From: Chloroflexota bacterium
GTDB taxonomy: Bacteria; Chloroflexota; Dehalococcoidia; Lucifugimonadales; GCA-2719675
Direction: 5' to 3'
DNA: 64,000 nt
Assembly (NCBI GenBank): GCA_002719675.1
Contig: PBID01000016.1
Span: 66,837-130,836, forward strand
Shown: positions 3,661-13,407 of the stretch, one piece after another
How positions within the stretch are numbered: position 1 is the stretch's first letter
Layout: every line of letters starts with the position of its first letter
Position numbers and translations under genes: made by a program
Notes under the pieces: model-generated
Database searches by the model: none
Seen by the model: the letters and a program-made list of their open reading frames with translations, nothing else
Told to the model about the DNA's origin: nothing

Positions 3661-5286
3661 TTATCTTCTTCGAAAGTTTTTAGAACATAATAAATTTGCG
3701 CAATGTGCAGATTTTAGTGAACCTTGATTAGTGTCTCGAAATACAATTAAACCTAATCCATCAATTCCTATAGTAATTGATGAGTGGAACCATTTGTCTC
3801 CTGTGGACTGAATTGTAGTACTAGTTACAAGACTGCATTCGATATTCACGCAATGTCCAATTTTAAGTTTGTCGTTTGTTGCATCCCAATAAGAAATCAA
3901 ACCTAATCCGTCAATTCCTATAGTAATTGAGCTGAATTCTCCTGTGTTTCCAATTGAATCAACAATATTACTGACTCCGCCAGAACAGTCTAGGTTAGTG
4001 CAATGAAATATTTTCAGATCTCCGTTGATGCCATCATAATAACTTATTAGACCCAGGCCATCTACTCCAGTGGTGATTGAAGTGTGATAGTAAATTAAAC
4101 CTGAATTATCTATTGAAGAAATTTTAAAATTTGAACAATCTTGGTCGTTACAGTGAGCTACTTTTAAATTTTTATTAGTATTGTCTTCATAGCTGACAAG
4201 TGCTAATCCGTCACCGCCAATAGTAATTGACGAGTATCTACCTACTGATCCCACATCGTCAATTAATTTGATTTCAAAGTTTTCACAGAGTTTATCTTTA
4301 CAATGGGCTAATTTTAAATTTTGGAGAGTAAGGTCATAGTAACTTAATATTGGGAAATCATCACTTCCAATTGCAATACTAGTATATCTACCAACGTCGT
4401 TTAATGAATCAAGAGTTTTTATAGTTGTATCTGTACATTCGATATTATTACAAAAAGCAATTTTTAGATTTCCATTGAATCCATCGTAATACGAAATGAC
4501 AGGATTGCCTGTTGTGCTAATTGTAATGGAACTGTATTCTCCGATTTTAGCTGTAGAATCATCTACAATTGTTACAGATGTTGATGTGCATTTGATATCT
4601 TTACAATGGGCTACTTTAAGTACTTTGTTAGTATTGTCATAATATGAAACTATTGGTAATCCGTCAGAACCAATAGTAGTGGAATTTTGCAAACCAACAT
4701 CATTGGTTGAATCTAAGGTTGAAATAGTAAATCCTTTAGGGATTTGTCTATTGAGTTCATTACTTGATTGACCTGCGGGCCCTCTAGGACCAATGTCACC
4801 TTTTGCACCTTGGCTACCAGTGTCACCTTTTAGACCTTGGTTACCAGTGTCACCTTTTGCACCTTGGCTACCAGTGTCACCTTTAGTACCTTGGCTACCA
4901 GTATCACCTTTAGTACCTTGTAAACCGGTAATACCTTGAGGCCCAGTTCTTCCTTGGGTACCTTGTGGTCCTACGTTACCTTGTGGTCCTATAGGTCCAG
5001 TGTTACCTTTGATACCTTGGCTACCAGTGTCACCTTTTAGACCTTTTAATCCAATTTTGCCTTGGGCACCTTGTGGTCCTACGTTACCTTGTGGTCCTTG
5101 AGGCCCAGTTCTTCCTTGGGTGCCTTGCGGTCCTTCAGGTCCTATCAGGCATGAATTACTAATTAGAATCAATAACGATATAATGATTGATATAGTGATT
5201 ATAGATATAGATATTATAGGTGGTGAAAATTTATTCATATTTGAGTTTTGTAATTTTTGAAAATTTAAATTTGTATGCAATATCAA
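3661..5286 (-). CDS. Collagen-like repeat protein with seven-repeat Cys-containing C-terminal head (secreted/anchored); start probably at 5238 (MNKFSPP)
   Basis: Hydrophobic N-terminal segment ending ISNSC; uninterrupted Gly-X-Y triplets; seven ~50-aa repeats SITIGxDGLxLISYYDxxNxxLKxxHCxxxxC. Confidence 0.88.
   Translation of the reverse strand: MILHTNLNFQKLQNSNMNKFSPPIISISIITISIIISLLILISNSCLIGPEGPQGTQGRTGPQGPQGNVGPQGAQGKIGLKGLKGDTGSQGIKGNTGPIGPQGNVGPQGTQGRTGPQGITGLQGTKGDTGSQGTKGDTGSQGAKGDTGNQGLKGDTGSQGAKGDIGPRGPAGQSSNELNRQIPKGFTISTLDSTNDVGLQNSTTIGSDGLPIVSYYDNTNKVLKVAHCKDIKCTSTSVTIVDDSTAKIGEYSSITISTTGNPVISYYDGFNGNLKIAFCNNIECTDTTIKTLDSLNDVGRYTSIAIGSDDFPILSYYDLTLQNLKLAHCKDKLCENFEIKLIDDVGSVGRYSSITIGGDGLALVSYEDNTNKNLKVAHCNDQDCSNFKISSIDNSGLIYYHTSITTGVDGLGLISYYDGINGDLKIFHCTNLDCSGGVSNIVDSIGNTGEFSSITIGIDGLGLISYWDATNDKLKIGHCVNIECSLVTSTTIQSTGDKWFHSSITIGIDGLGLIVFRDTNQGSLKSAHCANLLCSKNFRRR
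3664..4698 (-). repeat. Seven ~50-aa protein repeats, each with C-x4-C
   Basis: Manual alignment: repeat lengths 51,50,50,50,50,50,44 aa. Confidence 0.92.
4771..5142 (-). repeat. Collagen-like Gly-X-Y coding repeat tract (~41 triplets)
   Basis: Translation GPEGPQGTQG...KGDTGSQG...GPRGPAG without interruption. Confidence 0.95.
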
Positions 5287-7569: not shown

Positions 7570-8913
7570 TTAAATATAAGTAAATTTTACTTCTAGGTTA
7601 TCTTCAACAGATATAGATTTAGCTAGAATTTTAATAATTAAACTTTTTGTTGGAATTGGTTGTTTTTCCCAATTTTCCCAATTTTCTGTAGCTTGTTTAA
7701 TATATTTTGGTGAAGATACTTCATCTAAAGTTTTTTTTGCCACATCTATTTCTTTAATATATTCACCTATAAGAGTTATATTAGTGGCTTTTGTTGCAGA
7801 TTCAGTGATGAATTTGTTTAGTTTAATTTTGGCTTTTTTGATGGAAACATCGCGTGCAATTTTCAAATCATTCATGGATGATTTGTTTATAAGGATTTCT
7901 TTAGATTTGATATGTGATTTCATTTTCTCGAATACTTTTTTTTCTAAGAGATCTTCTTTCACTGTATGATAATCACAAGTTCCTTCATTGTTTCTAGATT
8001 GACATTGATAATATCTATAAACTTGTTGATTTATTTTTGAAGCTTTGTTTTTCCAAGATTGTTTTTTTGTAACTCCCATCATTTTACCTTTACAGTAACC
8101 ACATTCAATTAACCCTGATAAAAGGAAAGGTTTGGATTCAAAGATTCTTCCTATTGGTTTGCGTGATTTAGTTATTTCTTGTGATTTTCGAAATATTTCT
8201 GGAGTAACTATTGCTTCATGCATCTTTGCTTTTCTTATGCCCAGTCTTGTATATGTTCCAATATATGTTACGTTCTTTAGGATGTCTCTAACATTTAGAG
8301 CGCTCCATGGTTTTTCTTTGCGGAATTTAATTTTTCTTTCATTGTTTAAATGATTTGCAATTTTCCTGAATCCCATTTCTGATTGTGTATATAATCTAAA
8401 GATTAATTCAACAACTGTAGCCTCTGATTTAATGATTTCAAGCCTGCTATCAGGTCCAATTTGATAGCCGTAGAGAGTACGTCCTAGAGGTTTCCCCTCT
8501 AATGCTTTTATCATCATAGATTCTTTAATTTTAGAACTTCTACTTTTTGAAATTCCTTCGAATCCGATATTATTTAACGCGTTTTGAAGGATGTTTGGAT
8601 CATTCTCATCCATACAGGCTACTTCGCTTCCGGTTTGCACCAATTCAAATAATTTTCTTGAAAATTCTTCTAGAGTTTTTCCTAAATGTTTAGCAGATGG
8701 AACAAGTATAAGAAATGTTTTCCCGGAATTTTTTATATAATGAATCATATTTGTATATTCATTTTGATTATTTAAAGCAGAATCATTACTTTCATAGAAA
8801 GATTTGATTGGTTGGTGCATGTTGTATTTGCAAAATTCTTCAAATTTTGAAGATGCTTCTTCTATAGAGTTATTATGTTGATTCAAATTTTGAAAATAAC
8901 TTATTGATAGCAT
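7570..8913 (-). CDS. Recombinase family protein (serine-recombinase homologue with degenerate catalytic domain)
   Basis: Recombinase-domain features (GKPLGRTLYGYQI..., RKIANHLNNERK..., W...VRDILKNVTYIGT), zinc ribbon CGYCKGK...CQSRNNEGTC, coiled-coil C-terminus. Confidence 0.85.
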   Translation of the reverse strand: MLSISYFQNLNQHNNSIEEASSKFEEFCKYNMHQPIKSFYESNDSALNNQNEYTNMIHYIKNSGKTFLILVPSAKHLGKTLEEFSRKLFELVQTGSEVACMDENDPNILQNALNNIGFEGISKSRSSKIKESMMIKALEGKPLGRTLYGYQIGPDSRLEIIKSEATVVELIFRLYTQSEMGFRKIANHLNNERKIKFRKEKPWSALNVRDILKNVTYIGTYTRLGIRKAKMHEAIVTPEIFRKSQEITKSRKPIGRIFESKPFLLSGLIECGYCKGKMMGVTKKQSWKNKASKINQQVYRYYQCQSRNNEGTCDYHTVKEDLLEKKVFEKMKSHIKSKEILINKSSMNDLKIARDVSIKKAKIKLNKFITESATKATNITLIGEYIKEIDVAKKTLDEVSSPKYIKQATENWENWEKQPIPTKSLIIKILAKSISVEDNLEVKFTYI

Positions 8914-11214: not shown

Positions 11215-13407
11215 TTGTTGAAAATTAAAGACTCTATGACAGGTGATTTAAAATCGGTAATCTCTGATAATCAAACTCAGGTAAAAATTTATACTTGCGG
11301 CCCTACTGTGTATCGAAGTGCACATTTAGGTAATATGCGTACTTATTTAATGGCAGATTGGATTCGTCGTGTAATTTCTTTAGACTCTAATATAAAAATA
11401 TTTCATGTTAAAAACATTACAGATGTTGGTCATATGCGTCAAGAGAGATTAGAACTGGGGGAAGATAGAATTATTTCTGCTGCTATTAATGAAAATAAAA
11501 CTGCTAGTGAGATTGCAGATTTTTATACTTCTGAGTTTTTTAGAGATGAAAAAAAACTTAATATAATTCCTGCAGAATTTTTTCCTAAAGCTACTGAAAA
11601 TATTAACGAGATGATTGAAATAATCGAAAAGTTATTGGTAGATGGATTCGCGTATAAAGTACTTGGAAATATTTATTACAATGTAGATAAATGGAAAGAC
11701 TATGGAATTTTGTCTGGTAATAATGGTAGTGATTTACTTGAAGCTGTCAGAATTAAAAAAGATTTGAATAAATTAGATCCTAGGGATTTTACGTTATGGA
11801 AGAAAGCAGAGAAGGGTAGGACTTTAAAATGGAAAAGTCCATGGGGCGAAGGATTTCCTGGGTGGCATATAGAATGTTCAGCAATGTCGATTAAATACTT
11901 AGGTAAATCTATAGATATTCACACAGGTGGTGTTGATAATTTATTTCCCCATCACGAGGATGAAATTGCTCAATCAGATGCATTCAATGGAGTTAAAACA
12001 GTAAAAACTTGGGTTCATGGACAGCATCTTTTGTGGGATGGTGTAAAAATGTCAAAATCTGAGATGAATGATCTAACAGTTTCTGATTTAGAAAATAAAG
12101 GGTTTGATCCAATTGCATTTAGATACTTATGTTTGACTTCTAGGTATTATAATCGGCTACATTTTTCTATTTCTTCTATTAAGTCAGCACAAAATGCTTT
12201 GAAAAAAATCCGACAAAAGGTTTGGATTTGGTCAGAAAATTTGGTTAATAAAAGTTCTGCAGATCAAATTTTGATCAAAAATTACAAATTAAAATTTCAT
12301 CAGTTTGTTTCAGATAATCTGAACTTACCTCTTGCAGTATCTCATATGTGGGCAGTAGTCCATTCTGATTTGTCAGATTCTAATAAATTTGAATTGTTAT
12401 TATATTTTGATAAAGTTTTTGGTTTAGGTTTAGATTCAATATCAAAAAATAAAATTGATCAAGAGATTAATTCAAAAATGTCTTTGCGATCTGATCTTCG
12501 TTTAAATCAGAATTATTCAAGCACAGACAAAATCCGCTCGGATATTGCTGGAAAAGGTTATTTAATAGAAGATACTTCAAAAAAATCTAGAATAAGACCT
12601 TTGATGAATTGGGAGAGTCCTGAAAAAAAGTTTTTGGATTGTTTAAAGTCTCCGAAAGATTTTGCTTTTTTACCTTTGAATGAATCGGAATTTGAAATTA
12701 CAGTAGGATTGATTGCTAGGAATGATCTAGCTGATATTACACGTTTCGTCTCTGGATTTTTAAATACGCTTAAGTTCAAAAATTCTGAATTGTTGATTGT
12801 AAATAACTCAACAAATGTTTATGTACACTCCTATCTAGCAAATTTAAATAAAGATTATCAAAATGTCCGAGTAATTCATTTGGATCATAATTATGGAGAA
12901 GCTACAGCAAAAAACATAATTTTGAAACAAAGTAGAGGCGAGATTCTTATATTGATGGATGTTAGTACAGAAGTTATTGGAGATATTTTTACTCCAATTA
13001 AAAATATATTGTCAGATGAAAAAATTGGTGTTTGTGGGATAGATGGATTAACTTCAGATGATTTTAGGCATTTTCATGAAGATAATAACAAGGGTCTTTT
13101 TGTTGATGCTATGCAGGCATACTGTTTTGCTTTCAGAAGAAACATTTTGTTGGATGTGGGCTTAATGCGTGAAAATTTTAGATTCTATAGGAATTTGGAT
13201 TTGGATTTTAGTTTACAGATAAAGAACTTGGGATATAAAATATTTTCTTTTGATATGCTTCCTTTGAACAAACATGAGCATTGGGTTTTTCAAGAATATT
13301 CTTCTGAAAGGGTCGATGAATTGAGCAAGAAGAACTACAAACGCTTCTTGAAAAAGTGGGATGGAAGAAATGACTTACTCGTAAAAAACCAAAAAAATCA
13401 GATTTGA
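11215..13407 (+). CDS. cysS: Cysteinyl-tRNA synthetase with fused C-terminal GT2-like glycosyltransferase domain
   Basis: CGPTVYRSAHLGNMRTY, HIECSAMS, PHHEDEIAQSDA, KMSKS; CysRS C-terminus IRSDIAGKGYLIEDT; then GLIARNDLADITRF...GEATAKNIILKQSRGEILILMD. Confidence 0.95.
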   Translation: MLKIKDSMTGDLKSVISDNQTQVKIYTCGPTVYRSAHLGNMRTYLMADWIRRVISLDSNIKIFHVKNITDVGHMRQERLELGEDRIISAAINENKTASEIADFYTSEFFRDEKKLNIIPAEFFPKATENINEMIEIIEKLLVDGFAYKVLGNIYYNVDKWKDYGILSGNNGSDLLEAVRIKKDLNKLDPRDFTLWKKAEKGRTLKWKSPWGEGFPGWHIECSAMSIKYLGKSIDIHTGGVDNLFPHHEDEIAQSDAFNGVKTVKTWVHGQHLLWDGVKMSKSEMNDLTVSDLENKGFDPIAFRYLCLTSRYYNRLHFSISSIKSAQNALKKIRQKVWIWSENLVNKSSADQILIKNYKLKFHQFVSDNLNLPLAVSHMWAVVHSDLSDSNKFELLLYFDKVFGLGLDSISKNKIDQEINSKMSLRSDLRLNQNYSSTDKIRSDIAGKGYLIEDTSKKSRIRPLMNWESPEKKFLDCLKSPKDFAFLPLNESEFEITVGLIARNDLADITRFVSGFLNTLKFKNSELLIVNNSTNVYVHSYLANLNKDYQNVRVIHLDHNYGEATAKNIILKQSRGEILILMDVSTEVIGDIFTPIKNILSDEKIGVCGIDGLTSDDFRHFHEDNNKGLFVDAMQAYCFAFRRNILLDVGLMRENFRFYRNLDLDFSLQIKNLGYKIFSFDMLPLNKHEHWVFQEYSSERVDELSKKNYKRFLKKWDGRNDLLVKNQKNQI

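Follow-up and report, generated by a model that had tools for sequence, protein, structure and literature searches.

Gene and domain organization

The 64-kb window, by which we mean the whole stretch of DNA analyzed, belongs to a 1.4 Mb MAG of SAR202 (Chloroflexota), a lineage that is abundant in the ocean and for the most part uncultivated. It encodes on its minus strand a protein composed of a hydrophobic leader, a collagen-like stalk and a C-terminal head of seven repeats (Table 1). The open reading frame 5286..3661 (−) was confirmed, but the gene bound of 5286 in the preliminary description was not upheld: this position is a TTG upstream of the ATG at 5238 (MNKFSPP), which is the conserved start. 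The ATG was chosen because the same-genus orthologue L034, from a SAR202 cluster bacterium MAG, begins with MNRFSP and the letters upstream of it differ. The two heads are 83% identical, with a dN of 0.10 and a dS of 0.94, thus indicating that the gene is under purifying selection, and its reading frame is intact. The gene order (SDR, this gene, NUDIX, two MFS genes) is retained in L034, although these neighbours are uninformative on function.

Table 1. Coordinates in the window of the gene and of its observed and predicted parts
Feature	Position	Strand	Basis or remark
Whole gene, ATG to stop	3661..5238	minus	525 aa; start as in orthologue L034
Hydrophobic N-terminal leader, residues 1-30, ends at Cys30	5149..5238	minus	sequence; lipobox degenerate, ...LISNSC
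Collagen stalk, residues 33-158, 42 unbroken Gly-X-Y triplets	4765..5142	minus	Pfam PF01391
Seven-repeat head, predicted propeller, residues 159-525, seven C-x4-C hairpins	3664..4764	minus	repeats and predicted fold
Outer strand GFTISTLD near the N-terminus of the head (head residues 11-18); by prediction it fills in blade 7 ('Velcro' closure)	4711..4734	minus	DSSP
C-terminal tail SKNFRRR, belongs to family motif P-x-[FV]-R-[RN]-R	3664..3684	minus	head alignment

Two further frames in the window are worth recording. A 730-aa frame (11215-13407, +) apparently fuses a cysteinyl-tRNA synthetase catalytic domain to a family 2 glycosyltransferase domain. A serine-recombinase-like protein (7570-8913, −) features Recombinase and zinc-ribbon domains but no match to the resolvase catalytic domain; the sister species (L034) has kept a homologue close by, and this points to domestication, not to a mobile element of recent date.

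The leader does end in a cysteine, as had been described, and Cys30, which is not part of the C-x4-C pairs of the head, is probably a lipid-attachment site or membrane anchor. The proposal that the protein is a surface lipoprotein is supported. Most relatives have a canonical lipobox directly before the collagen, at the place equivalent to Cys30, and both Lgt and LspA genes were found in the host genome. In contrast, the box of the window protein itself (LISNSC) fails the standard lipobox pattern, with the cysteine present at the expected place, and such a degenerate box with a retained cysteine is shared by its same-genus orthologue and by L017. Lipidation of Cys30 seems likely. The same genome also encodes a second collagen-stalked probable lipoprotein (L001:889-1821, −, contig C19), in which a canonical-looking lipobox is followed by collagen and then by a different C-terminal head without a Pfam match.

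The stalk matches PF01391 with 69.6 bits against a cut-off of 27.2. It is uninterrupted, as claimed, although we count 42 triplets instead of about 41. Proline occupies the X position in 11 triplets and the Y position in none, and there are six KGD motifs. The chains presumably trimerize into a triple helix, and a stalk that is triple-helical throughout would be approximately 36 nm long. Relatives from one family of the order (L007-L012, L019-L021 and L027) carry an extra conserved segment (SDHDHDSDYYT...VAWSSLTGVPxDLSSGG) between collagen and propeller; it gave no match in a Pfam search of L010 and is perhaps a trimerizing linker.

Repeats and predicted fold of the head

The head consists of exactly seven repeats of about 50 aa with one C-x4-C pair apiece, in agreement with the preliminary description. 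The first cysteines of the pairs lie at residues 212, 263, 313, 363, 413, 463 and 513, a spacing of 51/50/50/50/50/50, while 20,000 shuffles of the head yielded at most five C-x4-C pairs, whatever their spacing. AlphaFold2, run on the window sequence together with L034, returned a propeller fold of modest confidence (pLDDT 64, pTM 0.72), compared with pLDDT 53 and pTM 0.57 for one sequence alone. The model has about four strands per repeat, and its best Foldseek matches are the seven-bladed lectins PHL, PLL2 and PLL3 (best E 6e-12, TM 0.63-0.69); the glycoside hydrolase BT3686 and sialidases are also returned. We consider it very probable that the head adopts a propeller fold, and the fixed repeat number across the family, the strand pattern and the Foldseek matches all predict seven blades, as originally suggested.

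The arrangement of the strands also points to a means of closing the ring. An outer strand of the xIxxLD type follows the C-x4-C motif in repeats 1-6 but is missing after repeat 7, and one such strand (FTISTLD) stands ahead of repeat 1, where DSSP assigns a strand to head residues 12-18 of the model. This pattern suggests that the ring is closed by strand complementation, with the N-terminal strand completing the last blade. At the extreme C-terminus of the protein, most heads of the SAR202 order carry the basic tail P-x-[FV]-R-[RN]-R.

Cysteine pairs

The cysteines appear to be paired within blades, as had been proposed, although the support is indirect. Of the 310 repeats aligned, both cysteines are present in 240 and both absent in 67, and only three have a single one (one of these reads C-x5-C), so that the pairs are gained and lost jointly. 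In the model, the members of a pair lie on adjacent strands of one hairpin; in the two best-modelled hairpins (Cys54/59 and Cys305/310, head numbering) they are predicted to face each other across two-residue turns, a geometry that fits a cross-strand disulfide. Taken together, this is consistent with one disulfide per blade. In the Cys-free 47-aa relatives, the equivalent place reads like YAYKDGSGWHVETVD, and the cysteine pair plus about three extra residues may thus stand in for an Asp-box-like turn.

Oxidation of these cysteines is not readily explained by the gene content of the host. Neither VKOR nor DsbD was found in the genome, and the sole DsbA-family match looks like a FrnE-type protein that lacks a signal peptide and resides in the cytosol; both points count against cysteine oxidation. 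A link between the head and VKOR oxidases across genomes (14 shared genomes, Fisher p 0.03) was discounted, as 12 of the 14 fall within one family of the order.

Family and distribution

Searches of Pfam, NCBIfam and PDB sequences gave no significant match to the head, and the claim that the repeat belongs to no named family holds: the head family is without a name in any family library. LolA and designed TIM-barrel matches in the PDB were weak and driven by the repeats. Pfam matches to DUF1936, Baculo_19, NUMOD and similar models cover short pieces of repeats, mostly with no single stretch passing alone, and were not taken as kinship. A phage tail-fibre reading was likewise rejected, since the PHROG matches fall mainly on the collagen and no relatives of the head were found in the phage, plasmid and viral-contig collections that were scanned.

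A search with the head alone found relatives in 47 of the 197 genomes of the order, and a profile search of the phylum, for which 400 genomes were sampled, gave matches in 18 of them, the host genome included. All complete heads in the order have seven repeats, including L014 and L018, in which the last cysteine pair is degenerate. Heads both with and without a stalk exist: a Gly-X-Y stalk precedes 20 of the 23 order heads with a readable N-terminus (L025, cut by a contig edge, was left out of this count), and L018, L031 and L033 are stalkless. Elsewhere in the phylum, L036, L037 and L039 are Cys-bearing heads without collagen. On the tree, in which several branches are weakly supported, the stalk label requires about three changes. 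The family appears to be a widespread, selectively maintained surface protein in the SAR202 order.

Other Chloroflexota encode proteins with Cys-free repeats of about 47 aa (SLALDxxGxPHISYYDxxNxDLKYAYxDxxGW; L040, L043, L044, L046 and L048), in several of which seven or about fourteen repeats are present. This family is mostly unnamed save for fragmentary BNR_4 matches.

Proposed function and alternatives

In the working scheme that we propose, Cys30, the last residue of the leader, would be lipidated and would fix the protein to the cytoplasmic membrane on its outer face, and three chains would form a collagen rod that measures at most about 36 nm. Each chain would terminate in a closed seven-bladed β-propeller, in which the head's N-terminal strand would complete blade 7 and a C-x4-C disulfide would pin the strand 3-4 hairpin of every blade in place of an Asp-box-like turn. 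The heads would then act as multivalent, low-affinity binders, most likely of glycans carried by polysaccharides, by particles or by other cells, and bound heads would keep the ligand near the cell surface. We regard this scheme, in which a multivalent head on a lipid-anchored collagen stalk would bind ligands that are probably glycans, as evenly poised between right and wrong, and the protein may be an adhesin. A narrower version, in which the SAR202-order proteins are collagen-stalked propeller lectins with one disulfide per blade and inter-blade sites that bind deoxysugar-rich marine polysaccharides, is more speculative and rather unlikely to hold in full. For PHL, as many as seven fucose sites in each monomer are described (PMC6797808). 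One SAR202 strain in cultivation grows better with fucose and rhamnose (PMC10444878), which makes a binding role testable.

Conservation within the head bears directly on this question. All positions conserved above 80% in 14 non-redundant heads belong to the repeat consensus and are shared by most blades, none being blade-specific; the invariant columns are repeat-motif residues (Gly, Tyr, Cys, Leu and Asp). An enzyme with a single active site therefore fits less well than a structural ring or a set of equivalent sites repeated around the head. The window head has just two tryptophans, neither of them in the repeat consensus, and the absence of the PLL tryptophan pockets indicates that it does not belong to the PLL lectins.

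Propellers often serve as platforms for protein docking, and the head could be a structural or docking module that binds no sugar at all, such as an envelope or S-layer scaffold or a cell-cell spacer. The conserved basic tail and the missing tryptophan sugar pockets would suit such a role, as would the occurrence of S-layer-bearing monoderms among Chloroflexota (PMC12488501). However, a patchy occurrence (47/197 genomes) is ill-suited to an essential envelope scaffold and the best fold matches are lectins, so that we rate docking as possible but somewhat doubtful.

It is improbable that the stalk instead carries a BNR_4/sialidase-like propeller enzyme, either a PL24/25 lyase or a BT3686-like glycoside hydrolase. 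This idea draws on the Cys-free relatives, which exceed the curated BNR_4 cut-off (L043 with 49.1 bits), on the presence of BT3686 and sialidases among the Foldseek matches, and on the PL25 ulvan lyases, seven-bladed propellers of the BNR_4 group (PMC13193363). BNR_4 (PF15892) does not match the window protein itself at the Pfam gathering score, which only Cys-free relatives pass, and such enzymes have a single asymmetric active site that is difficult to reconcile with conservation confined to the repeat consensus. Since the Cys-free relatives match BNR_4, a group that includes seven-bladed lyases, kinship of the head with carbohydrate-active propellers is nevertheless plausible.

Least probable of all is that the H-C-x4-C motifs bind a metal or heme and do not form disulfides: a histidine does precede the first cysteine in about 75% of repeats and the genome lacks a recognizable dedicated disulfide oxidase, but this histidine is swapped for Q, R, K, F, Y or I with both cysteines retained, which speaks against a metal site, two adjacent cross-strand cysteines offer just two ligands per blade, and the hairpins of separate blades lie far apart in a propeller.

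The preferred reading, a multivalent binding head on a stalk, would bear on how cells of this lineage contact polymers or particles. It would also make the head a compact, repeat-based binding scaffold carried by a natural collagen rod.

Comparison with known systems

Bacterial surface proteins with a collagen stalk are already known, and so are seven-bladed lectins, whereas no report of a collagen stalk joined to a seven-bladed lectin head was found in the open-access literature. Streptococcal Scl1 and Scl2, Legionella Lcl and Bacillus BclA likewise combine an export signal, a Gly-X-Y rod and a globular non-collagenous domain, and a lollipop shape is known for Scl (PMC8968730). The window protein matches the NCBIfam SclA/SclB/Lcl models in part, over the collagen stretch only, and its scores against NF038329, NF038330 and NF046116 (84-87 bits vs cut-offs of 325-500) fall short of a full-length match. 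It differs from Scl, Lcl and BclA in its C-terminal predicted seven-bladed propeller, its probable lipid anchor and its lack of an LPXTG motif.

The Photorhabdus PLL/PHL lectins are the nearest structures to the modelled head, which would share with them repeated sites and seven blades, each made of four strands and about 50 aa long. Neither phmmer nor a profile search matched any PLL chain to the head sequence at E<=1. PLL lectins have conserved sugar-stacking tryptophans at the blade interfaces (PMC12203525); these are missing here, and the C-x4-C pair in each blade and the collagen stalk are additional differences. Remote kinship with the BNR_4 propellers, which include the PL24/PL25 lyases, is likely in view of the Cys-free seven-repeat relatives that pass the cut-off, although the window protein and its Cys-bearing relatives remain under it and have no asymmetric active site.

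Animal ficolins, collectins and C1q display recognition heads on a trimeric collagen stalk. The working principle is alike and the heads are unrelated, so the comparison is one of analogy only; if the head does prove to be a lectin, the SAR202 protein would be a bacterial counterpart, by design, of the ficolins and collectins.
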